A DNA stretch of 64,000 bases from assembly GCF_029945705.1 (NCBI RefSeq), contig NZ_JAQSDC010000060.1:1-64000 (forward strand). Reading direction: 5' to 3'. Of the stretch, positions 8,788-47,860 are shown piece by piece. This DNA is from Methylotenera sp. (GTDB lineage Bacteria; Pseudomonadota; Gammaproteobacteria; Burkholderiales; Methylophilaceae). The stretch's first letter is position 1; each line of letters begins with the position of its first letter. The translations under genes were made by a program, and so were the position numbers. The notes beneath the pieces were generated by a model. It was not told the DNA's origin. It was given only the letters and a program-made list of their open reading frames with translations, and did no database searches.

Positions 8788-8802
8788 TACCTCTTAGGTG
8801 TA
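8788..8802. promoter_or_regulatory. NarL-like heptamer pair, variant 7-1-7
   Basis: TACCTCT (8788-8794) matches the NarL heptamer TACYYMT fully. After one base it is followed by AGGTGTA (8796-8802), a weaker inverted half. The site lies between divergent hpnC and the cupin gene, 65 bases before the cupin ATG. The same TACCTCTTA core recurs upstream of dmmD. Its irregular spacing makes it less certain than the copies at 30,068 and 39,951. Confidence 0.4.
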
Positions 8803-8866
8803 ATTGTGAGATTAGAGGCGTTGAGATTAAATACAACACAGTTAATCAACCATAAGGAGAAGTGCA

Positions 8867-9220
8867 ATGAGTTCGAAACCGTTTCAATACAAAAAACAGG
8901 CTATTAAAGATTCTCAGCCGTCGATGAATGTAGCTGGCGTTCCTGCTTGGCTTGGAGACACATTTATATCTGCAGATGCTGATAAACGAATTTGTGCAGG
9001 CTTCTTTCGTTTAGAGAAAGGTAACGCTCTGAATTACAGCTACGATTATGAAGAGATGAAAATTGTTGTAGAAGGTACATTTATTATTTCTGATGATACT
9101 GGTCAACAAGTGACTGCAACCGTGGGTGATGTACTTTATTTCCCATCTGGAAGTAACATTAAGTTTGAAACGCCTGACTATGCAATTGGCTTCTTCTGTG
9201 GTCAACGCGTACCGTTATAG
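8867..9220 (+). CDS. EutQ-like cupin protein
   Basis: This 117-residue protein is a single cupin barrel. Residues 60-100 read EEMKIVVEGTFIISDDTGQ then GDVLYFPSGSNIKFE, the two cupin motif regions of the EutQ-like group. The usual metal-binding His residues are largely absent, so metal binding or acetate-kinase-type activity is doubtful. An AAGGAGA ribosome site precedes the ATG. It is monocistronic, between the divergent hpn operon and the convergent GNAT gene. Its role is unknown. A link to amine metabolism is inferred from neighbours only. Confidence 0.6.
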   Translation: MSSKPFQYKKQAIKDSQPSMNVAGVPAWLGDTFISADADKRICAGFFRLEKGNALNYSYDYEEMKIVVEGTFIISDDTGQQVTATVGDVLYFPSGSNIKFETPDYAIGFFCGQRVPL

Positions 9221-9284
9221 TTTTCTGTAAAAAATACGTCTGCAATGCTGTCAAATGTATTGCAGATGCTATTTTCTTTATGGC

Positions 9285-9740
9285 TTATAGAAAAACTCTA
9301 CGTGCCTGTAATTGGGTAGATTCCCACTTTAAGTGTTCGTAATAACCTAAAGCTTCTTTATTCTCAATATCTACCAAAAGTTGAGCGCGTGTGGCGCCAT
9401 TTTCTTTGGCCCAATCTAATGTCCGCTGAAGCAGTTTTTTGCCTATACCATGTCCGCGATAGGATGAGTGGATGACCATGTCTTCAATCCACGCTGAAGC
9501 TGCGCCTTGTGCGGTTGAGATGACTAGCTGAGCGGTCACCATTCCAATTACTTTGCCTGCGTTATTTTTAGCCACTTGCACGGTTGCTGTGTCGAGATTT
9601 TTAACGATTAACTCAAGTCCTTTTCTTTGTTTAGATAAATCTGGGTTAAAGTCTTTTTCAATCGTAAATAAATCTGATAACAAACTCACCAAGTCATCAA
9701 TATCAGACTCATTGGCTACTTGATAGTTAATATTTTCCAT
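9285..9740 (-). CDS. GNAT family N-acetyltransferase
   Basis: A 151-residue single GNAT domain. Motif A is VIHSSYRGHGIGKKLLQ (about residues 90-106), which contains the RGxGIG pyrophosphate loop for acetyl-CoA. ENKEALGYYEHLKWE near the end is the usual motif B region. The substrate is unknown. It lies 14 bases after the XRE-cupin regulator on the same strand, so they are probably co-transcribed, which is common for PuuR-like regulators beside acetyltransferases. Confidence 0.8.
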   Translation of the reverse strand: MENINYQVANESDIDDLVSLLSDLFTIEKDFNPDLSKQRKGLELIVKNLDTATVQVAKNNAGKVIGMVTAQLVISTAQGAASAWIEDMVIHSSYRGHGIGKKLLQRTLDWAKENGATRAQLLVDIENKEALGYYEHLKWESTQLQARRVFL

Positions 9741-9754
9741 AAGTTGAGTCTTAC

Positions 9755-10393
9755 TTATTCTTCAAAATTTTCTTTATCCGGTGCATCGTAATGAATAATG
9801 GCTAAAAACTTAATCGGGGTTTCAATCAAGTTTTCAGGCCTATGTGGAATTTCGCCCTGAAAGGTAAGAGAGTCGCCTTTGTTTAATACAAAGGTATCTT
9901 TACCTACTCTATACTCGAGTGTACCTTCAAGCATATGGATAAACTCTGTGCCTGGGTGTTCAAACGCAGGAAACTCTTCGCATGAGTCTTCTAGGGAGAT
10001 TAAGAATGGTTCAAAGGTCTTGTGCGGGCCTTGGTCATAAGCCAGTAATTGGTAGGTGTGGCCCACTCGCGTGCCTCTCCTAACGACTTCCATGCCTTCA
10101 CCTTTTTTAACAAGCTGCGCGGCACCGCGCGGTAAGTTATAGTTTTGAAAGAGTTTGGAGAGGGTAACGCCTAAAGCATTGGCTAACTGTTCTAAAGTTT
10201 CTAAACTGGTGGCTGCAAGGCTATTTTCAATCTTACTTAGCATGCCACGGCTTATTCCTGCGCGTTCGGATACATCTGCAATAGTTAGATTATGCTCTAA
10301 CCTAAGTTGGCGTATGGTCGTGCCCAAATGCCGCCCGAGCGATTTATTGCGCTCATCTACTTTTACATCTTCAGTTTCTTTTTTTGCAGCCAT
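9755..10393 (-). CDS. XRE-cupin transcriptional regulator
   Basis: A 212-residue regulator. An N-terminal helix-turn-helix of the Cro/XRE type (residues 25-80, LTIADVSERAGISRGMLSKIEN) is followed by a C-terminal cupin sensor domain (about 130-205, GTEFIHMLEGTLEYRVG, then LTFQGEIPHRPEN). This is the architecture of PuuR-type regulators, which sense amines or amino acids. It is divergent from the Fae-like gene across a 231-bp gap holding an AAAGTTTCA box. The same box is repeated upstream of mgdA, so control of both is a reasonable inference. Confidence 0.85.
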   Translation of the reverse strand: MAAKKETEDVKVDERNKSLGRHLGTTIRQLRLEHNLTIADVSERAGISRGMLSKIENSLAATSLETLEQLANALGVTLSKLFQNYNLPRGAAQLVKKGEGMEVVRRGTRVGHTYQLLAYDQGPHKTFEPFLISLEDSCEEFPAFEHPGTEFIHMLEGTLEYRVGKDTFVLNKGDSLTFQGEIPHRPENLIETPIKFLAIIHYDAPDKENFEE

Positions 10394-10505
10394 TTTGAGT
10401 GTCCGAAGCTATTAACAACCCGAATATTACAAGAGACTTTAGCATTACTTGTAAATAAATTCTTTTTATTCACTAAAGTTGCAGAAATTATAACAAACAT
10501 TCACA

Positions 10506-10515
10506 AAAGTTTCAC
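10506..10515. promoter_or_regulatory. AAAGTTTCA box upstream of the Fae-like gene
   Basis: AAAGTTTCAC at 10506-10515, with a weaker AAAGTTGCAG at 10475-10484, lies in the divergent region between the XRE-cupin regulator and the Fae-like gene. The first nine bases are identical to the 10-bp boxes that recur upstream of mgdA at 12,111, 12,131 and 12,186. It is a candidate operator. The assigned protein is inferred only from proximity. Confidence 0.4.
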
Positions 10516-11173: not shown

Positions 11174-11190
11174 GCTTTATCATTCATCGT

Positions 11191-12000: not shown

Positions 12001-12031
12001 CGCTAACAAGTCCTTTATACACTCACCAACC

Positions 12032-12047
12032 TACCACTTTAGTAGTA
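12032..12047. promoter_or_regulatory. NarL-type 7-2-7 site upstream of mgdA
   Basis: TACCACT (12032-12038), TT and AGTAGTA (12041-12047) form an inverted heptamer pair with two-base spacing. Each half differs from TACYYMT only at position 5, where A replaces a pyrimidine. The same A at position 5 occurs in half-sites of the dmm and permease copies, which may reflect a local consensus. The site lies between the divergent formylglutamate deformylase and mgdA. Confidence 0.5.
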
Positions 12048-12064: not shown

Positions 12065-12074
12065 TACCTAAGTA
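12065..12074. promoter_or_regulatory. Overlapping NarL-like heptamers TACCTAAGTA
   Basis: TACCTAA on the plus strand and TACTTAG on the minus strand overlap in TACCTAAGTA. Each has six of seven matches to TACYYMT. ACCTAAGTAG recurs upstream of tmd at 32,114. This is a weak site, listed because of that recurrence and its place 18 bases after the 7-2-7 pair. Confidence 0.3.
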
Positions 12075-12286: not shown

Positions 12287-13528
12287 ATGCCCTTAAGATT
12301 ACTTAAATTCGCACTATCAAAAGAGCATCCAGCACCGCGCTTTTTTAAGTCACACGAGACCCCAAAGAAATCCTATGATGTAGTGATTATTGGCGGTGGC
12401 GGACATGGTTTGGCGGCGGCCTATTATTTGGCTAAAGATCATGGTATTACTAATGTATGTGTGCTTGAAAAAGGCTACATTGGGGGCGGCAATACAGGCC
12501 GTAACACGACTATTGTTCGTTCCAACTACCTCACACCAGAAGGCGTTAATTTTTACGATGCCAGCGTCAAGATCTACGAAGGTCTTTCTGAAGAGTTAGA
12601 TTTAAACCTTTTCTATTCAACACGTGGTCACTTCACGCTAGCTCATACTGAATCTGCGATGCGTACCATGAGATGGCGTGCTGAAGTGAATAAACATGTA
12701 GGCGTTGAAAGCCGTGTAGTTGGCCCTGATGAAATTGCTAAGGCTTGTCCACAGTTAGATTTGAGCTGTAGTGGTCAAGCGCCAATTTTAGGCGCTTTGT
12801 TTCATGCGCCTGGATCAGTAGCTCGTCATGATGGTGTAGCTTGGGGTTATGCCCGCGGTGCAGACCGTTTGGGCGCCGAAATTTATCAAAATACTGAAGT
12901 GCTTGGTATTGATGTTAAAAATGGCAAAGTTTGTGGCGTTAAGACTAATAAAGGCTATATCGAAACTAAGCAAGTGCTTTCAGCAGTTGCAGGTTTCACA
13001 CCACGTATTACAGAAATGGTTGATCTAGAAACGCCGATTGTGATTCATCCATTGCAAGCTTGTGTAACGGAGCCTATGAAACCTTGGCTAAACACCATCT
13101 TGGTTTCAGGTAGCTTACATGTGTATGTCAGTCAATCTTCTCGTGGAGAGTTGGTGATGGGTTCATCATTAGATCCATACGAAGTGCATTCAACACGCTC
13201 TACGTTAGATTTCGTGGAGGGACTTACCTCTCATATGTTAGATATGTTCCCATTCCTATCAAATGTAAAAGTGGTCCGTCAATGGGCTGGTATGGCTGAT
13301 ATGACGCCAGACTTTGCGCCGATTATGGGTAAAACACCGATTGAAGGTTTTTATTTAGATGCTGGTTGGGGTACTTGGGGCTTCAAAGCTACGCCTATTA
13401 GTGGCAAAACCATGGCACAAACCATTGCAAATGATAGTGCGCCAGATTTAATTCACTCATTCCGCTTGTCACGTTTTGAAGATTACGAACTGACTGGGGA
13501 AAAGGGTGCTGCGTCAGTAGGCCATTAG
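12287..13528 (+). CDS. mgdA: N-methylglutamate dehydrogenase, SoxB-like beta subunit
   Basis: A 413-residue flavoprotein like the beta subunit of heterotetrameric sarcosine oxidase. The FAD dinucleotide motif DVVIIGGGGHGLAAAYYLA is near residue 30. ARHDGVAWGYARGA near residue 180 includes the His position that carries covalent FMN in sarcosine oxidase. WAGMADMTPDFAPIMG near residue 335 is typical of the DAO fold. The enzyme oxidises N-methylglutamate to glutamate, passing formaldehyde to folate. It is the first gene of mgdABCD, with order B-D-A-G as in soxBDAG. The start follows ATGGAGTTAAGA. Confidence 0.9.
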   Translation: MPLRLLKFALSKEHPAPRFFKSHETPKKSYDVVIIGGGGHGLAAAYYLAKDHGITNVCVLEKGYIGGGNTGRNTTIVRSNYLTPEGVNFYDASVKIYEGLSEELDLNLFYSTRGHFTLAHTESAMRTMRWRAEVNKHVGVESRVVGPDEIAKACPQLDLSCSGQAPILGALFHAPGSVARHDGVAWGYARGADRLGAEIYQNTEVLGIDVKNGKVCGVKTNKGYIETKQVLSAVAGFTPRITEMVDLETPIVIHPLQACVTEPMKPWLNTILVSGSLHVYVSQSSRGELVMGSSLDPYEVHSTRSTLDFVEGLTSHMLDMFPFLSNVKVVRQWAGMADMTPDFAPIMGKTPIEGFYLDAGWGTWGFKATPISGKTMAQTIANDSAPDLIHSFRLSRFEDYELTGEKGAASVGH

Positions 13529-25583: not shown

Positions 25584-25613
25584 GCGTTAACGTGTGTTTG
25601 GCATACCTACCCA

Positions 25614-25636
25614 AACGTAGTAGTACTTAAAGAGAA
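25614..25636. promoter_or_regulatory. Weak NarL-like element upstream of folE2
   Basis: ACGTAGTAGTACTTAAAGAGAAT contains TACTTAA flanked by a TAGTA block and GAGAA, related to the TACTACTTAAGAG core of the dmm site. Each candidate half has only about five of seven matches. It is listed as a possible member of the family, not as an independent site. Confidence 0.25.
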
Positions 25637-25670
25637 TTGTTTAGAAAGCAACCAAGAATGAGAATGTATT

Positions 25671-25723: not shown

Positions 25724-25775
25724 AAGGAGGCAAGCTGTTTACATTTGAGTTTGCACTTGCCTCCTTCTTTTTTTA
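25724..25775 (+). terminator. Strong intrinsic terminator before folE2
   Basis: AAGGAGGCAAG (25724-25734) and CTTGCCTCCTT (25756-25766) form a perfect 11-bp stem with a 21-base loop, followed by CTTTTTTTT. It ends the permease cluster or attenuates folE2. Confidence 0.88.
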
Positions 25776-25851: not shown

Positions 25852-26727
25852 ATGAATTTGCCGATAGATTTTTCACTTCAAGATGTACAAAACTTGGCGG
25901 ATACTCGCCAACTTGCGATTGATAAAGTTGGCATTCGCGCAATACGTCATCCCGTAATTATCAAAGATAAAGCAGGTAGTGCGCAGCATACAGTGGCCAT
26001 GTTTAATATGTACGTGCATTTGCCAAAGCATTTTAAAGGCACGCATATGTCTCGTTTTGTCGAGATACTTAACGAAAATGAGCATGAAATATCTGTAGAG
26101 AGTTTCAAGAGTATCTTGCAGGAAATGGCAACAAGATTAGAGGCGAAATCTGGCTATATTGAAATGACTTTTCCATATTTCATCAACAAGTCAGCACCTG
26201 TTTCTGGCGTAAAAAGTTTACTCGATTATGAAGTTACCCTGATTGGTGAAATAAAAAATGGAAAACATGACGTTAAAGTAAAAGTGTTAATTCCTGTCAC
26301 TAGTCTTTGCCCATGCTCTAAGAAAATATCTGCGTATGGTGCACACAATCAACGCTCGCACGTCACTATTACCATTGCCTTAAAAGAATTTATGTGGCTT
26401 GAAGATATGATCAAGATGGTTGAGGCGCAAGCATCTTCTGAGTTGTACGGCCTACTAAAACGGCCAGACGAAAAATACGTGACTGAATTGGCTTACGATA
26501 ATCCAAAGTTTGTTGAAGATATGGTGAGAGATATCGCGACAGTATTTAAAAATGATCCTCGAGTAAAAAGCTATGTGATTGAATGTGAGAATTTTGAGTC
26601 TATACATAACCATTCCGCGTATGCATGTATATCAAGTGAGCTATCTGTAGATGCTGAAGATAAGCCCGCTAAAGAGCATAAGGCTAATTCTGTGAGTCCC
26701 TGTGTTTCTAGTGAAAATGGATATTGA
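25852..26727 (+). CDS. folE2: GTP cyclohydrolase FolE2 (type IB)
   Basis: A 291-residue FolE2. It makes 7,8-dihydroneopterin triphosphate from GTP, the first step of folate and methanopterin synthesis. The active-site motif [20 protein letters not shown] (about residues 148-167) carries the metal/catalytic Cys and His. [16 protein letters not shown] near residue 245 is the usual C-terminal motif. The last 25 residues are a loose tail. No Zur-type palindrome is visible upstream. It sits 6 bases before ribB, pointing to joint supply of cofactors for the amine pathway. Confidence 0.93.
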
Positions 26728-26733: not shown

Positions 26734-27906
26734 ATGATGAACGATATTGTTAACCTAAGTTATTTAGAACAAGTAAAAACGATACCTGCGTTTAAGGTAT
26801 TGGGAAATCCTACAGTTTCTATTAGCCCAATGATTGAAATTATTGAGGAAATGCGCCAAGGTCGTATGGTGGTGTTATTGGATGATGAAGATCGCGAGAA
26901 TGAAGGCGACTTAGTTATGGCGGCACAATTTGTGACGCCCGCAGACATCAACTTTATGGCTAAACATGGACGAGGATTGATCTGTTTAACACTGACTGAA
27001 GAGCGAGGTAAGCAACTCAATCTTGAGCCTATGGTGACAAAAAATGGTACAAAAATGGGTACCAATTTCACAGTTTCTATTGAAGCTGCTGAAGGCGTTA
27101 CTACGGGTATTTCAGCTGCCGATAGGGCGCATACTATACAAACAGCAGTTGATGTGAATGCTCGACCAGCAGACATCGTGAGTCCTGGCCATGTATTTCC
27201 TTTAATCGCACAAAAAGGTGGGGTATTAGTGCGTGCTGGCCATACTGAGGCTGGTTGCGACCTTGCTAAGCTTGCTGATCTTGAGCCAGCGTCCGTGATA
27301 TGTGAAATATTGAAAGATAATGGCGAGATGGCAAGGCTGCCAGATTTACTTGAGTTTGCAGCGAAGCATGATTTGAAAGTAGGGACGATTGCCGACTTAA
27401 TTAACTATAGAAGTCAGACTGAACGTTTGGTGACTAGGGTTGCTGAGCGTCATATCGAGACAGCTTATGGCGAGTTTAAATTAATCGCATTTAATGATAC
27501 TGCTGCCAACGAAACACATTTGGCGTTAGTTAAAGGTAAGGTAAGCGCTGATCAAAGTGTACTGGTTAGAGTGCATGAGCCTATAACTATCATAGATTTG
27601 TTAGATGCAAGTAGTAAGAGCCACAGCTGGAGTTTGCCGCACGCAATGGAACACATTAGCAAAGCAGAGTCTGGCGTCATTGTTATGCTTAGACGAAAAG
27701 AAGAGAGTGAGGATATTGTTCATGCAATCAAATCCGCAGGTCAGCCAGTTGACAATCAATATACGCTTAAAGATTATGGCATTGGTGCGCAGATATTACG
27801 AGATTTGGGAGTGGTAAAAATGCGCCTGATGGCAGAGCCTCGTAAGATTCCAAGCATGGCAGGATTCGGCTTGGAAGTGACTGAGTTTATAGTCTACGAA
27901 GCTTAA
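26734..27906 (+). CDS. ribB: 3,4-Dihydroxy-2-butanone-4-phosphate synthase with degenerate RibA domain
   Basis: A 390-residue RibB-RibA-like fusion. Residues 28-230 are a full RibB domain: VVLLDDEDRENEGDLVMAA (Mg-binding Glu), THTIQ-like AHTIQTAVD and RAGHTEAGCDLA. The C-terminal half resembles GTP cyclohydrolase II but lacks its zinc Cys set. Where RIHSECLTGD and RCDCG are expected, the sequence has RVHEPITIIDLL and no Cys. GTP cyclohydrolase II activity is therefore unlikely. It is co-transcribed with folE2. Riboflavin supply for FMN in MgdABCD and TMADH is the inferred role. Confidence 0.88.
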   Translation: MMNDIVNLSYLEQVKTIPAFKVLGNPTVSISPMIEIIEEMRQGRMVVLLDDEDRENEGDLVMAAQFVTPADINFMAKHGRGLICLTLTEERGKQLNLEPMVTKNGTKMGTNFTVSIEAAEGVTTGISAADRAHTIQTAVDVNARPADIVSPGHVFPLIAQKGGVLVRAGHTEAGCDLAKLADLEPASVICEILKDNGEMARLPDLLEFAAKHDLKVGTIADLINYRSQTERLVTRVAERHIETAYGEFKLIAFNDTAANETHLALVKGKVSADQSVLVRVHEPITIIDLLDASSKSHSWSLPHAMEHISKAESGVIVMLRRKEESEDIVHAIKSAGQPVDNQYTLKDYGIGAQILRDLGVVKMRLMAEPRKIPSMAGFGLEVTEFIVYEA

Positions 27907-29489: not shown

Positions 29490-29912
29490 CTAATCAGATC
29501 TATTCACTAGGCGTTCTGCTGCAGCAGTGAAATTACGCATTAACTTATTTTTTGTTGTGTCTTCTAGCCCAATTTGATCAATCGCCATTGACATACACTC
29601 AAGCCAAATGTCTTTTGATTCAACATTAATCTCTACGTGCTCATGCATGGTTCTGACATTCGAGTGACCATGTTTCTCTACATATAATTTAGGTCCACCT
29701 AAGAACCCTGAAAGAAAGTTGAATTGTTCAACACGTGAGTGTGCCAAGCCGTTGCCTCTTAGATGTAGTAAGAGCAGCTTATGAGCAAAATTTTCAGTTT
29801 CAACTATGTCATAAAAAACCTTTACTAGGTTCAAAACGCCAGCCTCTCCACCGACTAAATCATATAAAGAGCTATTTGCAGTATCACGCATTGTTGGCTG
29901 AACACTTGTCAT
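29490..29912 (-). CDS. Group II truncated hemoglobin
   Basis: A 140-residue 2/2 globin. SLYDLVGGEAGVLNLVKVFYD is the B-E helix start. FLSGFLGGPKLYVEKHGH followed by RTMHEHVEI is the E-F region. The proximal His is expected in MHEHVEI, and DIWLECM is the G-helix motif of group II globins (which usually read RDAWLxCM). Such proteins bind O2 or NO. Divergent from the permease before tmd, it shares an intergenic region with two NarL-type sites. A role in O2 or nitrosative protection around the oxygen-using DMA monooxygenase is possible. Confidence 0.82.
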   Translation of the reverse strand: MTSVQPTMRDTANSSLYDLVGGEAGVLNLVKVFYDIVETENFAHKLLLLHLRGNGLAHSRVEQFNFLSGFLGGPKLYVEKHGHSNVRTMHEHVEINVESKDIWLECMSMAIDQIGLEDTTKNKLMRNFTAAAERLVNRSD

Positions 29913-29998
29913 TGGTCGCTTTCTTCACTATTGATTAACTTATATATACGACGTAATAGTAAACAGTGAAATTGCGAATAAACACTATCTTGAAGGTG

Positions 29999-30014
29999 TA
30001 ATACTTAAGAAGTA
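29999..30014. promoter_or_regulatory. NarL-type 7-2-7 site (copy 1) upstream of the APC permease
   Basis: TAATACT (29999-30005), TA and AGAAGTA (30008-30014). The right half is a perfect inverted heptamer (TACTTCT), the left is 5 of 7. The surrounding 28 bases (29989-30016) match the reverse complement of the dmm site (39949-39976) at 25 of 28 positions. Confidence 0.6.
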
Positions 30015-30067
30015 TTTGGCTGAACAAAATCGGGTGCACAATGGACGAGGTCTAGTGTTAAGCAAAC

Positions 30068-30083
30068 TACTACTTTATGAGTA
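30068..30083. promoter_or_regulatory. NarL-type 7-2-7 site (copy 2) upstream of the APC permease
   Basis: TACTACT (30068-30074), TT and ATGAGTA (30077-30083). The right half is a perfect inverted heptamer (TACTCAT), the left is 6 of 7. It lies 69 bases after copy 1, close to whole helical turns apart, and 246 bases before the chosen permease start. Confidence 0.6.
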
Positions 30084-30328
30084 ATCCGTTATGAGAATTG
30101 CACTCAACTAATGATTGTCATCAAATGCATATCAATGCGGCAAGTTTTTTTAGACTCCGTAGAAGGTTTATAAGTAAGTGTTTTATATGCAGTTGTTTTC
30201 TATGTTTTGATATAAAAATTGTTTTATTTATTTGGTGACACAGGCTAATTCTGTTGCTTGACCCAGGTGGGCAGCTCCTTATTTAGATTTTGAGCTGTAA
30301 TGGGGATTTTATAAAAAGGGGACTTAAA

Positions 30329-32026
30329 TTGAGTGTAATTTCTTCGGTTGATGCGATTTCAGCTGATCTTTCTGAAAACGTTGCAGCGCAAAATGCAACG
30401 TTACATAGAAAGATTGGCTGGCAAGGCGCATTCTGGGTGGCAAGTGGCGTTCCTGCACTTGTTCTGTTTTCAATTGGCGCGATTGCGGCAACGGTCGGTA
30501 AGCCAGCATGGATGATTTGGGCAATTTCGATCGCTTTTGGTTTTATTCAAGCATTTACTTATGCAGAAATTGCAGGCCTGTTTCCGCATAAGTCTGGCGG
30601 CGCTTCAATCTATGGTGCAGTTGCATGGGTAAAGTACAGTAAGTTTATTGCACCAGTCTCTGTTTGGTGTAATTGGTTTGCTTGGTCGCCAGTGTTAGCC
30701 ATTGGCTCTGGGCTTGCAGCAGGTTATATGCTCAGCGCCTTATTCGCACCCGATGCAGTAATCAATACTTGGCAGATTACCTTATTAGACTTAAGTATGG
30801 TTAAAGATGGGCTGGCATTAAGAATAAACGCAACGTTTATTGTAGGTGCTGCTGTTCTGCTATCAGTATTTGCAGTTCAACATGGCGGCATTTTGCGTTC
30901 TGCTAAAACCACCATGATTCTTGGCGTGATTGCATTAATTCCATTGATGTTAATTGGATTGGTGCCATTAATGACAGGTGACATTTCTCAAGCCAACTTT
31001 TTCCCATTAGCACCTCTTGCGCATGACGCAGCAGGTAATGTGATTGATGGTGTGTGGGGAATAGAAGGCTGGAAACTAATGGCAGGCGGGCTGTTTATTG
31101 CGGCATGGTCTACCTATGGTTTTGAAACCGCAGTGTGCTACACACGTGAGTTCAAAAACCCAAAAACAGATACCTTTAAGGCTATTTTCTATTCTGGTCT
31201 GCTATGTGTAGCGGTATTTACGTTAGTGCCAATTGCTTTCCAAAGTCACTTAGGTTTGGGTCACATGGTGACACCTGCTGTCATTGATGCTGCTGGCGTA
31301 GTGACTAGCCCAGCTGTTTATGACGGTATGCTAGAAGCTTCAATCTACAGCGGTATGGGTGTAGCAGCAGCGTTCTCAGATATTGTAGGCGGTGGTGCTT
31401 TCGTTGCGAATGTGATGGTGATTATGATGGTACTTGCACTCATGTTATCTATCATGACCTCAATGGCGGGTTCTTCACGTACTTTATATCAAGCTTCTGT
31501 AGATGGATGGTTGCCTAAGTACTTATCCCATGTGAATGATCATGGTGCCCCTACAAGGGCAATGTGGACAGACCTGTGCTTTAATTTACTGCTTTTGATG
31601 ATGTCAGATTATGTATTCATTCTTGCAGCATCAAACGTAGGTTATATTATTTTCAACTTTCTCAACCTTAACTCTGGTTGGATCCATCGTATAGATAGAC
31701 CAAAGTGGGATCGCCCATATAAAGCACCAACTATACTATTGGTATTAGGCGGTATTCTTGGCTTCGTTAACCTTGGCATCATGGGTTTAGGTGCTGATGT
31801 ATGGGGTGCAGGAACATTGAAAGTTGGGTTGTTATTTGCATCCTTGATACTTCCAGTGTTTATCTATCGTCACTATATTCAGGATAAAGGCGTGTTTCCT
31901 AAACAAATGTTAGAGGATATGCACTTAGACGAGCATGAAGATGGCGTAGCAAATAGGGCTGGTGTTCTACCATACATTGCATTAGCTGCAGGTATTGGAT
32001 TGGTTTGGTACTTACATAGCCTGTAA
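30329..32026 (+). CDS. APC superfamily permease upstream of trimethylamine dehydrogenase
   Basis: A 565-residue permease with about 12 helices. Near the N-terminus, GAFWVASGVPALVLFSIGAIA and then GLFPHKSGGASIYGAVAW match the APC helix 1-3 pattern. A TTG start at 30329 is preferred because AGGGGA ends 6 bases earlier. An earlier TTG at 30290 lacks such a site. It is followed by an intrinsic terminator and then tmd, and its promoter holds two NarL-type sites. Transport of trimethylamine or dimethylamine is inferred from this placement. Confidence 0.85.
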   Translation: MSVISSVDAISADLSENVAAQNATLHRKIGWQGAFWVASGVPALVLFSIGAIAATVGKPAWMIWAISIAFGFIQAFTYAEIAGLFPHKSGGASIYGAVAWVKYSKFIAPVSVWCNWFAWSPVLAIGSGLAAGYMLSALFAPDAVINTWQITLLDLSMVKDGLALRINATFIVGAAVLLSVFAVQHGGILRSAKTTMILGVIALIPLMLIGLVPLMTGDISQANFFPLAPLAHDAAGNVIDGVWGIEGWKLMAGGLFIAAWSTYGFETAVCYTREFKNPKTDTFKAIFYSGLLCVAVFTLVPIAFQSHLGLGHMVTPAVIDAAGVVTSPAVYDGMLEASIYSGMGVAAAFSDIVGGGAFVANVMVIMMVLALMLSIMTSMAGSSRTLYQASVDGWLPKYLSHVNDHGAPTRAMWTDLCFNLLLLMMSDYVFILAASNVGYIIFNFLNLNSGWIHRIDRPKWDRPYKAPTILLVLGGILGFVNLGIMGLGADVWGAGTLKVGLLFASLILPVFIYRHYIQDKGVFPKQMLEDMHLDEHEDGVANRAGVLPYIALAAGIGLVWYLHSL

Positions 32027-32085: not shown

Positions 32086-32109
32086 ATTGTCATTCCAGGT
32101 TTTATCAAT

Positions 32110-32124
32110 AACACCTAAGTAGTA
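32110..32124. promoter_or_regulatory. NarL-like half-site upstream of tmd
   Basis: AGTAGTA (32118-32124) is the same half-site as in the dmm and mgd copies. AACACCT precedes it by one base as a poor partner (7-1-7). It lies 82 bases before the tmd start, so it could influence its promoter. Weaker than the copies at 30,068 and 39,951. Confidence 0.35.
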
Positions 32125-32181
32125 AGCCATGAGGGTAATTGTTTACATTGCTCATCACATTGAGAATAGCCATACAGTTAA

Positions 32182-34398
<2,217 letters not shown>

Positions 34399-39950: not shown

Positions 39951-39966
39951 TACCTCTTAAGTAGTA
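39951..39966. promoter_or_regulatory. NarL-type 7-2-7 site upstream of dmmD
   Basis: TACCTCT (39951-39957), TA and AGTAGTA (39960-39966). The left half is a perfect TACYYMT heptamer. The right, TACTACT on the minus strand, has six of seven matches. It lies 88 bases before dmmD. A 28-bp block around it (39949-39976) is conserved in reverse orientation at 29989-30016. Confidence 0.65.
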
Positions 39967-40054
39967 CACCTTCAAGAGAATTTTCTCTGATTTTCTATTC
40001 CGATAATGTGTAATCAATCTCTTAACAATTTCATTTTATTAAGTAAGGAAAATA

Positions 40055-41173
40055 ATGCGAAATTCTATTCTTAACGATAGACACGCGACGCTTGGATCCA
40101 GTTTAGATGGCGACAAATGGAACGACATGGCTATTCCTTGGAGCTATCACACGGATCCAAATGAAGAAACGATTGCGGTGCGTAGCCGCGCTGCTTTGTT
40201 CGATGTTTCAGCACTAAATCTTGTCGATGTCACTGGCACTGATGCTGAGGCGGTATTAAATGCTATGGTTGCCAAAGATATCATCAAGCTTAAAGTCAAC
40301 ACTGGCATTATCGCGGCGGAAATGAATGAAGCTGGGGAGTTGTGCGACGATATTATGATTATTCGTCTAGGTGCCAATGAATTCAAAATTTCTCATGGAA
40401 GTGGTAAAACACCTGACAATCTAAGTAAGTTATCTGCAGGCAAAAACATTAAAGTTCAAAAAGATGATGATACGCACGTATTGTCATTACAAGGTCCTAA
40501 ATCTCTTGAAATTCTTACGCCGCATGTAGGCATTATATTGTCAGAATTACCCTATTTTGGTTTTGTGAAAACCACCTTATTTGGCATTCATGTGATTATT
40601 GGCCGTGGTGGATATGCAGCAGAACGCGGCTATGAAATATACAGTTCAGCAAAAAATACAGTCACGATTTGGGACAAAATTCTTGAGATTGGAAAGCCAT
40701 TTGGCATCATGCCAGCCTCTTGGAACTGTCTGGAGTTAACTAGAGTAGAAGCTGCTTTGCAGTTCTTTCCATTTGAAATGCCAGAGGGTGACACAACGCC
40801 TTGGGAAGCGGGTTTAGGTTGGGCAATTGATTCTGATAAAGCGGCTGAATATACAGGTAAAGCGGCCGCATTAAAGTCAAAAGGTCAAGAGCGCGTTAAA
40901 CAAGGTGGTCTTGTTTGCCAAAGTGCAACTGCTGTGGAAGCTGGCGCCAAAATCATGAAAAATGGTATTGAAGTTGGTGTGGTCACCAGCAGCAGTTATA
41001 GCCAATACTTAATGCAGTCCATCGCGATGATGCATATCAAGCCTGAATATTCAGCCATTGGCACTGAGGTAGAAATAGTGGGAAAAATTACCAGTTGCAA
41101 GGCAAGAGTGGCACAAACGCCATTTTACGATCCAATGCGCTTGCGTACCTACCCAGAAAGGGTGAAAGGTTAA
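40055..41173 (+). CDS. dmmD: DmmD, GcvT-like tetrahydrofolate aminomethyltransferase
   Basis: A 372-residue GcvT/folate-dependent aminomethyltransferase-fold protein. N-terminal RSRAALFDVSALNLVDVTGTDA, then GELCDDIMIIRLGANEFKISHG and GRGGYAAERGYEIYSS, plus ELTRVEAALQFFPFE, are typical of the family. It is the first gene of the dimethylamine monooxygenase operon dmmDABC, where DmmD is thought to pass formaldehyde to tetrahydrofolate. It has an AAGGAAA ribosome site. The role is inferred from operon order and family, not from a known active-site residue. Confidence 0.82.
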   Translation: MRNSILNDRHATLGSSLDGDKWNDMAIPWSYHTDPNEETIAVRSRAALFDVSALNLVDVTGTDAEAVLNAMVAKDIIKLKVNTGIIAAEMNEAGELCDDIMIIRLGANEFKISHGSGKTPDNLSKLSAGKNIKVQKDDDTHVLSLQGPKSLEILTPHVGIILSELPYFGFVKTTLFGIHVIIGRGGYAAERGYEIYSSAKNTVTIWDKILEIGKPFGIMPASWNCLELTRVEAALQFFPFEMPEGDTTPWEAGLGWAIDSDKAAEYTGKAAALKSKGQERVKQGGLVCQSATAVEAGAKIMKNGIEVGVVTSSSYSQYLMQSIAMMHIKPEYSAIGTEVEIVGKITSCKARVAQTPFYDPMRLRTYPERVKG

Positions 41174-41175
41174 TC

Positions 41176-41772
41176 ATGGAACGTGGATATTGGATTAGAA
41201 GCAAGCCTGTTTACACTTCATTATTGTGGCATGAAAAAGCCACTTCGCATTTAGTCGTAGCGCAAAGTCAGGGTGGTATGGCGGTGTTGAAGTTGTTTCA
41301 GTTAATGCATCCTAAGCAAGCAATCACGGTGTTGTATATGCCCCATGCTGAGGCCGACTATTCTAAAACGCTTATAAAAGTAGTACCTGATGGTTTGCAA
41401 CTCTTAGAAACTGAGCAAGAGGTTTTAGCTAAGTTGGATAGCGTCTTACATGGCATGTGTATGGGTATGCGGCTTTATATTGCTGGCTCTGAAGACTTTA
41501 TGTGGTCAGTAGCAAAAGTGGCAAATAAGTTCGGCATTGAAGATGCTGGCATGATGAAAGAGCTGACAGGCACATTGGCAAGACCAATCTACTGCGTACA
41601 TTGCAAAGCGACAACACATGGCGTCACAACCAATATTGGGGAATGTAGCGGCTGTGGTCGCATGCTTTTCGTTCGGGACCACTTTTCACGCAAGCTAGGC
41701 GCCTACATGGGCTTGATGATAGATGCTGAATCACCAGGTGAATTACCAGATATAGAGGAAATATATCCATGA
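41176..41772 (+). CDS. dmmA: Dimethylamine monooxygenase subunit DmmA
   Basis: A 198-residue protein with an N-terminal domain (residues 1-135) and a C-terminal Cys motif, YCVHCKATTHGV then GECSGCGRMLFVRDHFSR, matching the zinc-finger-like C-terminus of DmmA. ATG at 41176 is the first codon after the dmmD stop. An in-frame extension into dmmD is rejected. The last four bases overlap dmmB. DmmA is required with DmmB and DmmC to convert dimethylamine to methylamine and formaldehyde. Confidence 0.85.
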   Translation: MERGYWIRSKPVYTSLLWHEKATSHLVVAQSQGGMAVLKLFQLMHPKQAITVLYMPHAEADYSKTLIKVVPDGLQLLETEQEVLAKLDSVLHGMCMGMRLYIAGSEDFMWSVAKVANKFGIEDAGMMKELTGTLARPIYCVHCKATTHGVTTNIGECSGCGRMLFVRDHFSRKLGAYMGLMIDAESPGELPDIEEIYP

Positions 41773-42722
41773 GTATGATTGATATTAAAGTTGCCGCCGT
41801 TGAGCAGGTAACGCCACTCGTTAAACACTTCACTTTTGTTAAACAGGATGGGTCGCCATTCCCGGCATTTTCAGGTGGAAGCCATGTGGTAGTCTCTATG
41901 AATGTAGCGGGAAGGGTGCATCGCAACCCTTATTCGTTAATGGGCTCGCCAGTAGATACTGGCTCTTACCATATTTCGGTGCGCAAACAAGAGCAGTCTA
42001 GAGGCGGCTCAGTGTTTATGCACGAGAGTGTTGAGGTTGGCACATCACTGCAAATTACTTATCCAGTTAACCTTTTCTCATTGGCAAAAAAAGCACATAA
42101 ACATATCTTGATTGCAGGTGGTATTGGCATCACGCCATTTATGTCGCAATTGGTTGATTTAAATCGTTTGAATTCAAGTTTCGAGTTGCATTATGCATTT
42201 AGATCACCCGAACATGGTGCATTTGCAACGCAATTAAAGACAATTTGCAATGATAAATTGCATTGTTATGCTGATAGTAAAGGTGAACGTTTAGACCTAA
42301 CTGCTTTACTTAGCAAGCAACCCTTAGGAACCCATGTATACGTTTGTGGGCCAAACCCTATGGTCGTGGCAGTCATTGAAACTGCCAGAAATTTGGGCTG
42401 GCCTGAAAATCATATTCATAGTGAACAGTTCCTCTCACCTGGTATTGGTGAGCCATTCAAAATCCAACTGGCAAAATCTAATATTGAAGTGCACGTGCCT
42501 GCAGAAATGAGCATGCTAGAAGCTATTGAGGCTGCTGGTGTTGAGGCTGATTACTTATGTCGAGGCGGTGTTTGTGGCCGTTGTGAAGTTAATGTACTTG
42601 AGTCAGATGGTGCGCTTTTACATCACGATCATTTTTTAACTGACGCCGAAAAAGCTTCTGGTAAAAAGATTATGCCTTGCGTTTCTCGCGCTAGATGTGA
42701 CCGATTGGTTTTAGATCTTTAA
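41769..42722 (+). CDS. dmmB: Dimethylamine monooxygenase reductase DmmB
   Basis: A 317-residue PDR/VanB-type reductase. The FMN domain has HRNPYSLMGSP (residues 50-60), and the NADH domain has LIAGGIGITPFMSQL and VYVCGPNPMV. A C-terminal 2Fe-2S ferredoxin domain follows (CRGGVCGRCEVNVLE, MPCVSRARCDRL). It supplies electrons to the heme oxygenase-like subunit DmmC. The start overlaps dmmA (ATGA). The order FMN-NAD-ferredoxin is the normal family arrangement. Confidence 0.9.
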   Translation: MSMIDIKVAAVEQVTPLVKHFTFVKQDGSPFPAFSGGSHVVVSMNVAGRVHRNPYSLMGSPVDTGSYHISVRKQEQSRGGSVFMHESVEVGTSLQITYPVNLFSLAKKAHKHILIAGGIGITPFMSQLVDLNRLNSSFELHYAFRSPEHGAFATQLKTICNDKLHCYADSKGERLDLTALLSKQPLGTHVYVCGPNPMVVAVIETARNLGWPENHIHSEQFLSPGIGEPFKIQLAKSNIEVHVPAEMSMLEAIEAAGVEADYLCRGGVCGRCEVNVLESDGALLHHDHFLTDAEKASGKKIMPCVSRARCDRLVLDL

Positions 42723-42801
42723 CGCCAGATTGACCAGAGATTGAATGACTTAAGTGTTTAAAACCACTTGATATTAAAAATATAAAATTAAGGTGAACAA
42801 A

Positions 42802-43842
42802 ATGGCATTAGCATTTAAACAAGAAACATTTCGCAATGACTATCAATACAGTAACTCTCCGAATGCAATTAAACGCTTTCCGTTTCCCTTTGCAGAAGAT
42901 CAGTATATGTATTCCGTCAACATTGAACCACACATTAAAGGCAAGCAAGGTACTGTATGCGAATTCCCTTTTGACGTAGATGAACACTATGTTGGAGAAT
43001 GTTTAGATAAGCAGATTACATTAGACTTAGATCGTGGTAGATACAAAACTCTACCGCACATGATGGATGCGCAATGGGATTTTGTTGAGCTGACGATGGA
43101 AGCGCTATCAAATGATTACCCTGAGCATTTTTCGTTAATAAAAGATGGCTTAAATTGGACATGGGAAAACAAACCATTAAACATTAAGCAAAGTTTTGTA
43201 TTTGGTGATGCTTCAACAATGCCAATGGATCCATTTGAATTTATGAGCCGACAAGTGCAAGGTGACTTTGTGTTACTTGACCAACGCGATGAAACTTTAT
43301 ATGCCGATGGCGGTTTTGTTACGAGCCAGGCAGACTGGTCTTTAGCGTTTGATGTGGGAATGTCATGGAGAGAATGGCATGCGCCAGTGCCGCGCGCGAC
43401 CGAGTTAGGTGTGATGGATAGAGCGCTTAAATATTTGCTCAACCTACAATTAGGCAGTCCAGTACGCAGGCTTAATTGGACAATGACAGTGAATCCACGT
43501 TTAGACACTTCACCTGAGAACTATCCACTATGGGGTACCGACCGAAATACTGTTAATCCTGAAAACGTTGCAGATAAAGTACATCTTCGCGTGGAGTTAC
43601 AATCTTTATTTAGATTGCCACGCAGCAATGCCATTGTTTTCAGTATTCGGTGTTACTTGATGAGTTTAAAAGAGCTTTCCAGCTATCCAAGATGGGCAAA
43701 ACGCTTACATCGCGTTCAAAAAACGATGCATCCAGATTTGATTGAATATAAAGGAATGACTAAATTTCACCCAATGATGGTTGAGTGGCTTTCTAAGTTT
43801 GATGACGGTGCTGCTATGGATTTAGGAACTCATCCAGAGTAA
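42802..43842 (+). CDS. dmmC: Dimethylamine monooxygenase DmmC (heme-dependent oxidative N-demethylase)
   Basis: A 346-residue protein of the DUF3445/HODM family. AEDQYMYSVNIEPHIKG, GRYKTLPHMMDAQWDFVELT, SFVFGDASTMPMDPFEFMSRQVQGDFVLLDQR and WHAPVPRATELGVMDRAL are characteristic segments. The family carries heme and oxidatively demethylates dimethylamine. ATG at 42802 (after AAGGTG) is preferred to GTG at 42793. It is the last gene of dmmDABC, and the minus-strand PAS gene converges on it. Confidence 0.88.
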   Translation: MALAFKQETFRNDYQYSNSPNAIKRFPFPFAEDQYMYSVNIEPHIKGKQGTVCEFPFDVDEHYVGECLDKQITLDLDRGRYKTLPHMMDAQWDFVELTMEALSNDYPEHFSLIKDGLNWTWENKPLNIKQSFVFGDASTMPMDPFEFMSRQVQGDFVLLDQRDETLYADGGFVTSQADWSLAFDVGMSWREWHAPVPRATELGVMDRALKYLLNLQLGSPVRRLNWTMTVNPRLDTSPENYPLWGTDRNTVNPENVADKVHLRVELQSLFRLPRSNAIVFSIRCYLMSLKELSSYPRWAKRLHRVQKTMHPDLIEYKGMTKFHPMMVEWLSKFDDGAAMDLGTHPE

Positions 43843-43877: not shown

Positions 43878-45239
43878 TTAATTAAGTAGCGATTTCACTT
43901 TATATTGTTGCTCTGGAATTTCGGTAATAAAACCTTCCAGAGCTAACAGTTCACCTGTACTAGAGAAGATGCCTCGACCGTACTCTTGCACGACTTTGGT
44001 TTCACCTTTACGGGTGACAATACGGTAAATGAGTTTAAATTTTTCACTTAGTCCGAGTTGCTGATTCACTGATTCCCATACTTCAGCCCTATCATCTGGG
44101 TGAATGATTAAGTTGAAATTAAGATTATTGCCATTAAGAAAATCTTGAGGGTCATAACCAGTAAGGTCTATACAACCGTCGCTGACATATTCAAATGTCC
44201 AAAAACGGTCGTTTCGACCCCGATAGACTAAGGCTGGAATATGACTTAATAAAGAGTTAGATGCTCGACGACTCGCTAATATGCTTGCTTCAGCCTCTTT
44301 ATTGTTTTGGATGTTTGTCATGGTGCCTATTACGCTAGTTCTTTCACCAGCAGACGAGGACGTGGCTTTTGCGCGCATGACAATCCAGTTTGGGTAGCCA
44401 TGTACTGAGAGAAGGCGCGCTTCCAGTGTGCAGTTGGGCCTTTTTCCTTGTGTTAAGGAATTTAGTCTGGCCTCTAGCATAGGTCTGTCTTCGGGATGGA
44501 AAAAGTCCAAAAGTGACTTATTTAGACAGTCATGAACTTTGAGCTCGAGTAAATTTTCCCATGCTGGATTAAGGAAAATTATTTTACCTTCCGCACTAAT
44601 TTGAAAAACGATTTCCTCTAATCTATCGATAATGAGATGGTAATTAAATTGGGATTCAAAATCGTTTGTTAATGGGCTGGTGGCAGAAATTGGTGTGAAT
44701 TGAAAGAGAGTAAGGCTGTTTTGACCATCTTCACGCATACGGGTGAGGCTGGCATTTGAAGGTAAGGTTGTGCCGTCGGCGCAAATTAATCGAATTTTTG
44801 TTGGGTCATTGTTAGTTTTACCTGTTGTAGCCTCAGCATTGAGGTTAGCAAAGCTTTGATGGTCTGTAGGATGTATCAAGTTGGTAAAGGGCATGCCGAT
44901 AATTTGATCCGCCATATCGGCCATACCTAGCATTTGGAGAAATGGTGTATTGATGAATTTTACGACATAGCCATCCAGCATGGCAGCTGGTGAAGATAGG
45001 GTACTTGAAACCTCACGTCCCCAAGCTGCTTCTTGATTCAGATTTTGATTGATACGTGATTTCTTCGAAGTGAATAAGGGCTGAATAACTATAACAAGTG
45101 CAGCAGAAAATATAGCAACGGCCGTTGAAATTAACATGACAACATGTAGTAAAAAAGGTCCTTGAATGTTGTACCATGAACCAAGTATCACAAAGAAAAT
45201 AATGCCAATGATTAGCGTAGAAAAAATAAATATACTCAT
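43878..45239 (-). CDS. Membrane-anchored triple PAS protein without output domain
   Basis: A 453-residue protein with two N-terminal membrane helices (residues 1-22 and about 30-53) and three PAS-like domains. Domain 1 (near 85-180) has IGMPFTNLIHPTDHQSF, domain 2 (near 200-315) has AEGKIIFLNPAWENLLELK, and domain 3 (near 330-445) has RFWTFEYVSDGCIDLTGYDP. The chain stops shortly after the last PAC segment with no kinase, GGDEF, EAL or HTH domain. It is divergent from the NarX-like kinase across 66 bases, so a sensory partner role is likely. Confidence 0.75.
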   Translation of the reverse strand: MSIFIFSTLIIGIIFFVILGSWYNIQGPFLLHVVMLISTAVAIFSAALVIVIQPLFTSKKSRINQNLNQEAAWGREVSSTLSSPAAMLDGYVVKFINTPFLQMLGMADMADQIIGMPFTNLIHPTDHQSFANLNAEATTGKTNNDPTKIRLICADGTTLPSNASLTRMREDGQNSLTLFQFTPISATSPLTNDFESQFNYHLIIDRLEEIVFQISAEGKIIFLNPAWENLLELKVHDCLNKSLLDFFHPEDRPMLEARLNSLTQGKRPNCTLEARLLSVHGYPNWIVMRAKATSSSAGERTSVIGTMTNIQNNKEAEASILASRRASNSLLSHIPALVYRGRNDRFWTFEYVSDGCIDLTGYDPQDFLNGNNLNFNLIIHPDDRAEVWESVNQQLGLSEKFKLIYRIVTRKGETKVVQEYGRGIFSSTGELLALEGFITEIPEQQYKVKSLLN

Positions 45240-45305
45240 TACGTTATGCCCAATTTTGAAGCTTTAATATGACAGTATTAGAGTATAAAAAGAACCAGAG
45301 TAAAT

Positions 45306-47135
45306 ATGCAAAATATTTTGAATATTCTTAGATTAATTCGCAAATCTTTAATCAAACATAAGCTTTATGCGAATTTACATGCATTAGTTGTTTCTATGGT
45401 CTTGGCGGTTTTATTGATGCAAGCGGGATCGTTGTTTTTGTTTGACTATATTCCAGATCATCTTTCCGTCATTCATCGCGCCTATCAGGATCAATCAACA
45501 TGGAAACTAGGTGTAAGCCAACTCGAAAGCAACTTTAATCAAAAGGAAGAAATTTTTAATCGATTAAATGAGAGTCAAAGTGAATTTGAAGATGTTTTAT
45601 ATTCATGGGCTAAAAATCAAAAAGATACAAAGTTAGATATTGCATACAAAAAACTATTATCAGCGCGAAGAGATTTTGCAAATACAAGAGTACATGGAGA
45701 TGAAAAAGACATATTGATTGATAAAGGGCAGGGCGTTATTAAGGCTTACGACGACTTTGTTGCTGCTGCGGAAAAAGATATTGTCATCAAGCAATCTTTA
45801 GTTTCATTACTTCAATTAGTTTGCTTAATACTGGTGTTTTGCATAGGCGCTTGCATTATGTTGATGTCATGGAATATTCTGGTCAATCGACTCGGCAAAA
45901 TAATTGCTTCTGTGCCCAATGGTTTAATTTTAAGTGAGGGTAATAAGCAATTTGATGATGAGTTTGAGTTACTTGAAAGGCTGACTGCTGAAATGGCTGC
46001 CCGCCTTGAGGGTATACAGGTTGAAACTAAGTGGATCAATAAAACCAGCACTGAAAAAATGCGGAAAATGATTCTTTCACAGGATTTCTTGTTAAAACTC
46101 ACTAAATTGATTGGAAACTCTGGATTAAGCGAGCTCACAATTAAAAAGACACTTTATTCACTTGAGCGTACTTTAGGTGTGAGTAATGCAGCATTGGTTT
46201 TTAGTGAAAAAGGATCGAGAATCTCCGCGCAGCGCGCGCTATTCTCTAGCTATTGGCCACTGACTTTTGATGAGAGCATGTTTGATGAAAGTAATAATCA
46301 AATTTTGGTCAATCACGAAACCAAGTTAATTAAAGGTGAGTGTGTGCAATGCGTCACGATTCCTCTGCCAAGCCCTAATGGTTGGTTGGGGATATTATTA
46401 TTAGAAACAGAAGCAAATCATTATTTTGAAGATACAGAATTACAATTATTTGAAGTGACCGCTCAGATGTTGGCTTTATCTATGGGATTCCAAGCCAAAG
46501 AGCAGGAAAGTCGGCGTGTGGCATTATTAGAAGAACGCGCAGTGATTGCTAGAGAGCTGCATGACTCACTTGCACAATCATTGTCATATATGAAGTTTCA
46601 AATTGCACGTTTGCAGACTAATTTTAGCGCGCAATTGATTGAATCTGGCGCAGAAACTATCGTGAATGACATGCGTGAAGGCTTAGATAATGCCTATCGG
46701 GAATTGCGCGAGTTACTGACTACATTTAGAGTGCAGATGGATGTTCGTGGGCTTGATCATGTGCTGGAAGAAGCGATTGAAGAGTTTTCCCAACGATCGA
46801 GCTTGAATATTACGCTTGATAATCGTTTGCAAGAATGTCGACTGAGCGTCAATGAAGAGTTTCATTTACTGCATGTGGTACGAGAGGCATTATCAAACAT
46901 TGTGCGACATTCAGGTGCAGAAAAAGTCACCATTGCACTCGTTTTACAGTCTTCCGGGGACGTGATAGTAACCATTGATGATGATGGTAACGGCGTAGCG
47001 TTTGACAAGACTAAACCGCATCACTACGGCCTGGCGATTATGACGGAACGTGCACATTGCCTAGGTGGGAAAATTGACATTCTCCCCAGGCGCCTTGGTG
47101 GGACGCGTGTCAGGCTGTTATTTCATCCAAAATAG
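45306..47135 (+). CDS. NarX-like sensor histidine kinase
   Basis: A 609-residue kinase. Two membrane helices (about 25-45 and 165-188) bracket a helical periplasmic region of roughly 120 residues. A GAF-like domain (about 260-395) follows, then the HisKA_3 box VIARELHDSLAQSLSYMKFQ with phospho-His near residue 419. The HATPase_c domain includes HVVREALSNIVRHS and a final GLAIMTERAHCLGG motif. This is the NarX/NarQ plan, but the nitrate P-box (GSLRMQSYR in NarX) is not seen, so another ligand is expected. Its response regulator follows. Confidence 0.85.
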   Translation: MQNILNILRLIRKSLIKHKLYANLHALVVSMVLAVLLMQAGSLFLFDYIPDHLSVIHRAYQDQSTWKLGVSQLESNFNQKEEIFNRLNESQSEFEDVLYSWAKNQKDTKLDIAYKKLLSARRDFANTRVHGDEKDILIDKGQGVIKAYDDFVAAAEKDIVIKQSLVSLLQLVCLILVFCIGACIMLMSWNILVNRLGKIIASVPNGLILSEGNKQFDDEFELLERLTAEMAARLEGIQVETKWINKTSTEKMRKMILSQDFLLKLTKLIGNSGLSELTIKKTLYSLERTLGVSNAALVFSEKGSRISAQRALFSSYWPLTFDESMFDESNNQILVNHETKLIKGECVQCVTIPLPSPNGWLGILLLETEANHYFEDTELQLFEVTAQMLALSMGFQAKEQESRRVALLEERAVIARELHDSLAQSLSYMKFQIARLQTNFSAQLIESGAETIVNDMREGLDNAYRELRELLTTFRVQMDVRGLDHVLEEAIEEFSQRSSLNITLDNRLQECRLSVNEEFHLLHVVREALSNIVRHSGAEKVTIALVLQSSGDVIVTIDDDGNGVAFDKTKPHHYGLAIMTERAHCLGGKIDILPRRLGGTRVRLLFHPK

Positions 47136-47221
47136 CTATAAACACTGTGGATTAGTAATTAATTAAGGCGTAAATAAAAATGAATTTAGACAAAAGTGAA
47201 CATAAATAAGTGGAGAGCAAT

Positions 47222-47860
47222 ATGACCAAACCTACATCTGTCATCATTATCGATGATCACGCCTTGTTCCGTCGGGGCGTCAGTCAAATGATCTCGGCAG
47301 ATCCAGCGTTCGTTGTCATTGGCGAGGCTGCTTCTGGTGCTGAGGGTTTGTTATTGGCAGAGCAGTTGAAGCCAGATTTAGCGTTGATTGATTTAAACAT
47401 GAAGGGCATGAATGGTATCGAAACGCTCTCACGTATTAAAGAGGCGAAGCTAGAGTCAAAATGTATTGTGCTAACTGTATCAGATGCTGAGGCGGATTTA
47501 CTTGAAGCTTTGCGTGCAGGTGCTGATGGCTATCTATTAAAAGATATGGAACCAGAAGACCTTTGTGATAATTTAAAAAAGGCAATGTCAGGCGTTACCG
47601 TTTTACATGAGAGCCTCACAGAAATTCTTAAAAACGCGCTAATTAGCCCGTCTTTAAGTCGAAGCGAGGAAGAAGTTTCATTGACTGAGCGTGAAAGAGA
47701 AATACTCGAGTGTTTGGCAAATGGCTTGAACAATAAGACTATTGCACGTTCTTTGGGCATCAGTGACACAACCGTTAAAGTACACATCAAACATTTGCTG
47801 AGTAAGCTAAAGTTAACCAGTCGGCTAGAAGCAGCCGTTTGGGCACATAGAAAAAAATAG
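47222..47860 (+). CDS. NarL-family response regulator
   Basis: A 212-residue NarL-like regulator. The receiver domain has IIDDHALFRRGV (Asp11-12) and the phospho-acceptor Asp57 in LIDLNMKGMNG, with DGYLLKDMEPEDL matching NarL. LuxR-type HTH: LTEREREILECLANGLNNKTIARSLGI, then the recognition helix TTVKVHIKHLLSKLKL, where TVKVHxKH of NarL (Lys188, Val189, Lys192) is kept. It should therefore bind NarL-like heptamers, and such sites occur at several amine promoters here. ATG 47222 follows GGAGAG. Paired with the upstream kinase. Confidence 0.9.
   Translation: MTKPTSVIIIDDHALFRRGVSQMISADPAFVVIGEAASGAEGLLLAEQLKPDLALIDLNMKGMNGIETLSRIKEAKLESKCIVLTVSDAEADLLEALRAGADGYLLKDMEPEDLCDNLKKAMSGVTVLHESLTEILKNALISPSLSRSEEEVSLTEREREILECLANGLNNKTIARSLGISDTTVKVHIKHLLSKLKLTSRLEAAVWAHRKK

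Follow-up and report, generated by a model that had tools for sequence, protein, structure and literature searches.

A NarL-type two-component system and a long promoter element at methylated-amine genes in Methylotenera sp.

We analysed a stretch of 64,000 nucleotides from Methylotenera sp. (contig NZ_JAQSDC010000060.1; hereafter the window), which carries a dimethylamine monooxygenase (dmm) operon, genes for a permease, a trimethylamine dehydrogenase-like protein and N-methylglutamate dehydrogenase (mgd), and a cluster encoding a sensor kinase, a NarL-type response regulator and a PAS protein. An initial annotation had placed pairs of inverted heptamers separated by two bases (7-2-7) before several of these genes, and had proposed that the regulator controls the whole pathway from trimethylamine to ammonium. 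Our comparisons point to an element of about 34 bases, which has a fixed position in the promoter, a recurring set of targets, and a distribution that follows the kinase-regulator-PAS cluster. The features are as follows; expectation values (E) refer to R1 and R2, two models introduced below.

39951-39984, plus: element upstream of dmmD (21-locus alignment; R1 E 1.5e-10 in its own genome, as a training sequence)
40002-40007, plus: GATAAT, predicted to be the -10 of the dmm operon; distance from the element start 51 bases (spacing table)
40055-43842, plus: dimethylamine monooxygenase operon, encoding DmmD, a DmmA-family protein, a reductase and a HODM alpha-like haem subunit (Pfam/NCBIfam)
29981-30014, minus: element facing the globin gene (R1 E 3.6e-5, outside the R1 training set)
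29490-29912, minus: Bac_globin protein of truncated-haemoglobin type (Pfam PF01152)
30068-30101, plus: element upstream of the permease gene (matrix, R2, conservation in relatives)
30290-32026, plus: trimethylamine N-oxide (TMAO)-permease-type transporter (NCBIfam NF053774, 846 bits, cut-off 690)
32109-32142, plus: element upstream of tmd (matrix, R2, -10 spacing, relatives)
32206-34398, plus: trimethylamine dehydrogenase-like protein (Pfam Oxidored_FMN architecture), called tmd after the initial annotation
12032-12047, plus: core dyad before mgdA (positions 1-17 match R1 with E 0.43)
12287-13528, plus: mgdA, N-methylglutamate dehydrogenase subunit of sarcosine-oxidase-beta type (Pfam DAO; TIGR01373 481.6 bits, below the cut-off of 529)
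8774-8807, plus: element upstream of the EutQ-like cupin gene 8867-9220 (matrix, R2)
25608-25641, plus: degenerate element upstream of folE2 (25852-26727) and ribBA (26734-27906) (R2 E 0.56)
43881-45239, minus: membrane-anchored PAS protein with no recognised output domain (Pfam, alignment)
45306-47135, plus: NarX-like sensor histidine kinase with HisKA_3 and HATPase_c (Pfam, alignments)
47222-47860, plus: NarL-type response regulator, the putative element binder (Pfam, NCBIfam, alignment)
28382-29461: EamA-type transporter, after the globin gene (Pfam PF00892)

The element and its position in the promoter

The inverted heptamer pairs lie where the initial annotation had placed them. The pattern TACYNCTNNAGNRGTA is matched exactly at 39951-39966 and 12032-12047, with one mismatch each at 29999-30014 and 30068-30083 and with two at 32109-32124; the 2.93 Mb genome has no other exact match, and each of these two stands before an amine operon. 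The reported agreement between the dmm segment and 29989-30016 (25 of 28 positions) is correct, the two segments being on opposite strands. The pair at 30068 belongs to the permease gene, as had been suggested. The pair at 29999 had been given to the same gene; its orientation and the 34-base element rule this out and point to the divergent globin gene (29490-29912, minus). Of the weaker variants, 8788-8802 corresponds to the second dyad within the 8774-8807 element, and 12065-12074 is unsupported as a separate site. An A at heptamer position 5, once put forward as a possible local consensus, is not one: over 68 distinct sites this position is A in 33, C in 39 and T in 26 percent.

An alignment of dmmD promoters from 21 loci gave the layout of the element: TACYHCY, two bases and an inverted heptamer, followed by ACCTTCRAGAGAATTTT or a similar sequence. 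The NarL-type 7-2-7 pair is thus present as dyad 1, but the element is longer than one pair. Positions 15-30 may form a second, overlapping 7-2-7 pair 14 bases downstream (dyad 2). At the dmmD promoter of the window dyad 1 reads TACCTCT-TA-AGTAGTA and dyad 2 reads TACACCT-TC-AAGAGAA. Across the 68 sites TACYYMT fits 23 left and 9 right halves, TACYNCY fits 56 and 48, and the 7-2-7 spacing is kept.

The element also has a preferred place. The best -10-like hexamer lies 51-54 bases from the element start at 89% of 23 dmm sites, at 78% of 44 others and at all five Methylotenera-type mgdA sites, compared with 17-19% in a shuffled control; the rows are related to one another, so these counts are not independent trials. 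From this spacing the centre of dyad 2 would be 29.5-32.5 bp upstream of the -10. For Escherichia coli NarL, an excerpt of PMC9314961 states that one 7-2-7 site suffices when it lies 32 bp upstream of the -10, and the distance found here is similarly class-II-like. In five g10 genomes the core dyad of mgdA is followed directly by TTGAC.

The bare pattern is no more frequent than chance allows. With up to two mismatches the window holds 9 matches against 5.47 expected, and 9 of 100 shuffles reach 9; with up to one mismatch the genome holds 21, compared with 57 for a reversed-pattern control. Seventeen bare-pattern matches lie outside the window, and 11 of the 13 that were examined fall within open frames of at least 100 amino acids. 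We therefore rejected enrichment of the bare pattern as an argument. The case for the element as read from these sequences rests on conservation.

Matrices recovered the longer element independently. A 30-column matrix was trained on dmmD promoters with the window and its three closest relatives left out. In the window it scored 45.9 at dmmD, 29.7 at 29985-30014 (minus), 14.5 at the permease gene, 10.9 at tmd and 8.6 at 8774; the next-best position reached only -0.2, a clear gap below the EutQ site. When all Methylotenera-type rows were removed, three window positions still exceeded 8 bits (dmmD, globin and permease), with the tmd and EutQ sites slightly under this value. The mean for 300 column-permuted matrices was 0.09 positions (maximum 2), although the best single permuted score, 17.1, exceeded that of the permease site, 13.0. 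A 16-column matrix gave six positions of at least 13 bits against a mean of 0.66 (maximum 5); among the six, 1245-1260 lacks an amine gene. R1, a model built from 28 dmm and TorF elements, found dmmD, globin and mgdA alone in its own genome at E<=10. The broader model R2 returned eight matches there at E<=1; seven are window sites, five of them training sites, and the eighth falls within an open frame. The matches at mgdA (E 0.19) and folE2 (E 0.56) were not training sites. Judged by these scans, it is the longer element, not the bare pair, that exceeds chance.

Targets of the element and distribution of the system

We searched a family sample of 150 genomes and a class sample of 369. The motif is conserved at orthologous amine operons: in relatives it precedes dmm, permease, tmd, mgdA, globin and folE2 genes and two cupin families. 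The EutQ-like cupin element occupies the same position in six loci (L044, L158, L183, L199, L205 and L206). The element also stands before a trimethylamine monooxygenase gene (tmm) in L045 (NF058570 833.5, cut-off 675) and before a TorF porin gene in L091 and L099. On this sequence evidence the EutQ-like cupin, the globin and, in relatives, tmm and the TorF porin are further predicted targets. R1 gave 49 matches in the family genomes at E<0.01, 26 of them training sites; 22 of the other 23 precede recurring targets, namely dmm (7, two relics included), globin (7), folE2 (4), cupin (2), permease (1) and mgdA (1). R2 at E<=0.05 gave 70 matches in 14 genomes with the system, many of them training sites, and none in four without it. 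Recurring targets follow 67 of the 70, a reductase gene being among these in two genomes.

Orthologues of the regulator with at least 68% identity occur in 28 of the 150 family genomes, and the PAS protein is found in the same 28. Eight further NarL-like matches (E<=1e-50) are paralogues at 44-47% identity. In all 28 genomes the kinase gene adjoins those for the regulator and the PAS protein, always near dmm, etf/tmd or mgd genes. Among the class genomes, one besides that of the window has a full-length PAS match. It is G309, from another family, where the same cluster is present and the element precedes dmmD, EutQ and folE2 as well as globin and a permease-TorF pair.

The proposal that the regulator controls the whole pathway stands in so far as the regulator gene co-occurs with both the element and the amine genes; control of mgd is lineage-specific. 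We compared 42 mgdA loci; the system is present in the genomes of 25 of them and absent from those of the other 17. A site (14.8-24.3 bits) was found at only 13 of the 25 and at none of the 17 (at most 5.0 bits). The core dyad of mgdA is kept in all seven same-genus genomes that have the system; the second dyad is not. An XRE-cupin gene lies beside mgdA, within the examined flank, at 29 of the 42 loci, and the element is present at none of these 29 and at all 13 of the others. Thus, the XRE-cupin protein does not use the site, and we rejected it as the element binder. In the window its gene (9755-10393) is about 1.9 kb from mgdA. The pattern looks like an exchange of regulators at mgd between the NarL-type system and the XRE-cupin protein, with the same-genus genomes not counting as independent cases.

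Proposed mechanism and alternatives

The regulator has a receiver domain and a GerE/LuxR-type helix-turn-helix (HTH), scores 282.1 bits with the NCBI NarL model (equivalog cut-off 250) and is 51% identical overall to E. coli NarL. Its recognition helix, TVKVHxKH, is invariant in our alignment, E. coli NarL included, and we take these residues to be the DNA contacts of that protein. The kinase retains NarX-like transmitter sequences, with HisKA_3 and HATPase_c domains, but falls far below the NCBIfam cut-offs for NarX (215.9 against 578) and NarQ (236.6 against 553). The sequence AIN-x-AGSLRMQSYR, common to E. coli NarX and NarQ, is absent from the nine kinases aligned with them; we take this shared periplasmic motif to be the P-box. 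A conserved QAGSLFLLDYIP in the kinase had been read as the NarX P-box, and this reading was dropped because the alignment puts the P-box further on. Two tryptophans, W66 and W101, hardly vary among 23 kinases, and one may speculate that they bind a ligand. A structure model of the kinase was helical and weak (predicted local distance difference test 72.6, predicted template modelling score 0.31), kinase domains dominated the fold search, and a claim of a pocket was dropped because the model was too weak.

We consider it likely that this two-component system (45306-47860), descended from NarX-NarL or closely related to it, activates a methylated-amine regulon through the 34-base element at class-II promoters. 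We infer the DNA binding, the phosphorelay, the sign of the regulation (activation, not repression) and the signal. The system would sense a methylated amine or a breakdown product. The phosphorylated regulator may then bind dyad 1 and the overlapping dyad 2 and aid RNA polymerase where the -35 of the promoter is weak. The predicted regulon would cover uptake (permease and TorF porin), demethylation (dmm, and tmd or tmm) and, in some lineages, the N-methylglutamate branch, together with the supply of folate and flavin cofactors (folE2-ribBA) and the accessory globin and EutQ-like cupin. More tentatively, and with the chances somewhat against it, a kinase/NarL-type/PAS unit derived from nitrate signalling may have been re-aimed at methylated amines: the nitrate-binding motif has been lost, a new ligand site may be formed by W66 and W101, an obligatory partner would be the PAS protein, and mgd would be captured or lost by exchange with the local XRE-cupin regulator.

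Several observations weigh against the proposed activation. Dyad 2 fits the heptamer poorly; because its right half in particular is a poor heptamer, we read it as a 7-2-7 pair only provisionally. Twelve of the 25 mgdA promoters in regulator genomes have no site (at most 0.8 bits). According to an excerpt of PMC3728764, Methylotenera versatilis 301 expresses its N-methylglutamate genes under every condition tested; if strain 301 has the mgdA site, this is not what a strictly inducible switch would lead one to expect. Within the window, no strong element was reported in the interval that separates the PAS gene from the kinase gene, and thus there is no sign of autoregulation. The presence of the element in all 28 system genomes is so by construction, because 26 of them supplied R1 training rows. 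Four matches lack a recurring target (G120:C3:94693, G018:C25:22101 and G062:C1:475416 with R2; G120:C1:1507183 with R1). Finally, strong elements (E<1e-3) occur in three of the 122 family genomes that lack the regulator (G007, G033 and G045). It is plausible that each exception has its reason: in G007 the dmm operon ends at the contig end, G045 is 78% complete, and G033 has a dmmD relic, described below.

Could this be a conventional NarXL system for nitrate and nitrite, which subjects amine oxidation to control by electron acceptors? The regulator passes the NCBI NarL model and would receive that name, its kinase domain is NarX/NarQ-like, and a globin in the regulon could suit nitrogen-oxide stress. 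We nevertheless regard this as improbable. The kinase lacks the motif common to NarX and NarQ and scores far under both cut-offs, the system adjoins amine genes in all 28 family genomes, and the recognised targets are amine and cofactor genes, no separate search for nitrate-reduction genes having been made. Equally unlikely, in our view, is that another regulator binds the element, such as the XRE-cupin protein or a different LuxR-type protein. The frequent adjacency of the XRE-cupin gene to mgdA and the NarL-like paralogues would suit this idea. It conflicts with the mutual exclusion at mgdA, and six genomes that have paralogues only (G060, G068, G102, G127, G139 and G140) gave no R1 match at E<=0.05, G045 being excepted. 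A third reading, in which the heptamer pairs arose by chance in AT-rich DNA between genes and were linked by eye, would agree with the unenriched bare pattern; the likelihood of this is negligible, since conservation in several genera, and in a second family too, already contradicts it. The fixed -10 spacing and the transfer of a dmm-trained model to other targets also speak against it.

Like E. coli NarX-NarL, the system proposed here has inverted heptamers two bases apart and the invariant recognition helix. Unlike it, the heptamer is TACYHCY rather than TACYYMT, a second overlapping dyad and an amine regulon are predicted, the kinase lacks the NarX/NarQ motif, and there is a gene for a PAS membrane partner. 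An excerpt of PMC13390433 describes TmaR of Ruegeria pomeroyi as the master activator of dmm, mgd and related operons in an amine gene cluster; the terms two-component, response regulator and NarL are absent from that paper. The regulator in the window is predicted to play a similar role. TmaR is an AraC-type one-component protein, whereas the present regulator has a GerE HTH and no AraC-type HTH. In the open-access papers searched we found no description of methylated-amine regulation in Methylophilaceae, and it appears to be undescribed. The analysis names a candidate regulator, gives a putative operator sequence and predicts a regulon, and it connects the amine pathway with porin and globin genes and with the supply of folate and flavin. 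It also suggests that a 'NarL' database label can mislead, and that within one family an operon may pass between two regulators.

Divergent dmm loci and the folE2 leader

In G033 (L103) a truncated dmmD runs into an N-formylglutamate-amidohydrolase-like frame and keeps the element; a close NarL orthologue was not found in this genome. Five loci (L092, L093 and L095-L097) have dmm operons in genomes with no dmmD match at E<=1e-60, and there the element precedes the DmmA-family gene. In two of them (L095:14022 and L096:14012) a strong element also lies between the dmmA-side and PAS genes, with no target gene identified. In G096 (L153:2095) a second, perfect dmm-type element is followed by DmmA-family and PAS gene fragments, the relic of a dmm locus.

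The pair folE2-ribBA is probably an extra target. The element of the window is weak and degenerate here; it is kept in four same-genus genomes, and orthologues have clear sites. An Rfam scan returned three tRNAs, with no riboswitch at folE2 and no match for a hairpin at 25726-25764. This hairpin, which has perfect arms and is followed by a T-rich stretch, lies between the predicted folE2 promoter and folE2, is kept in same-genus genomes, and could possibly be an attenuator.

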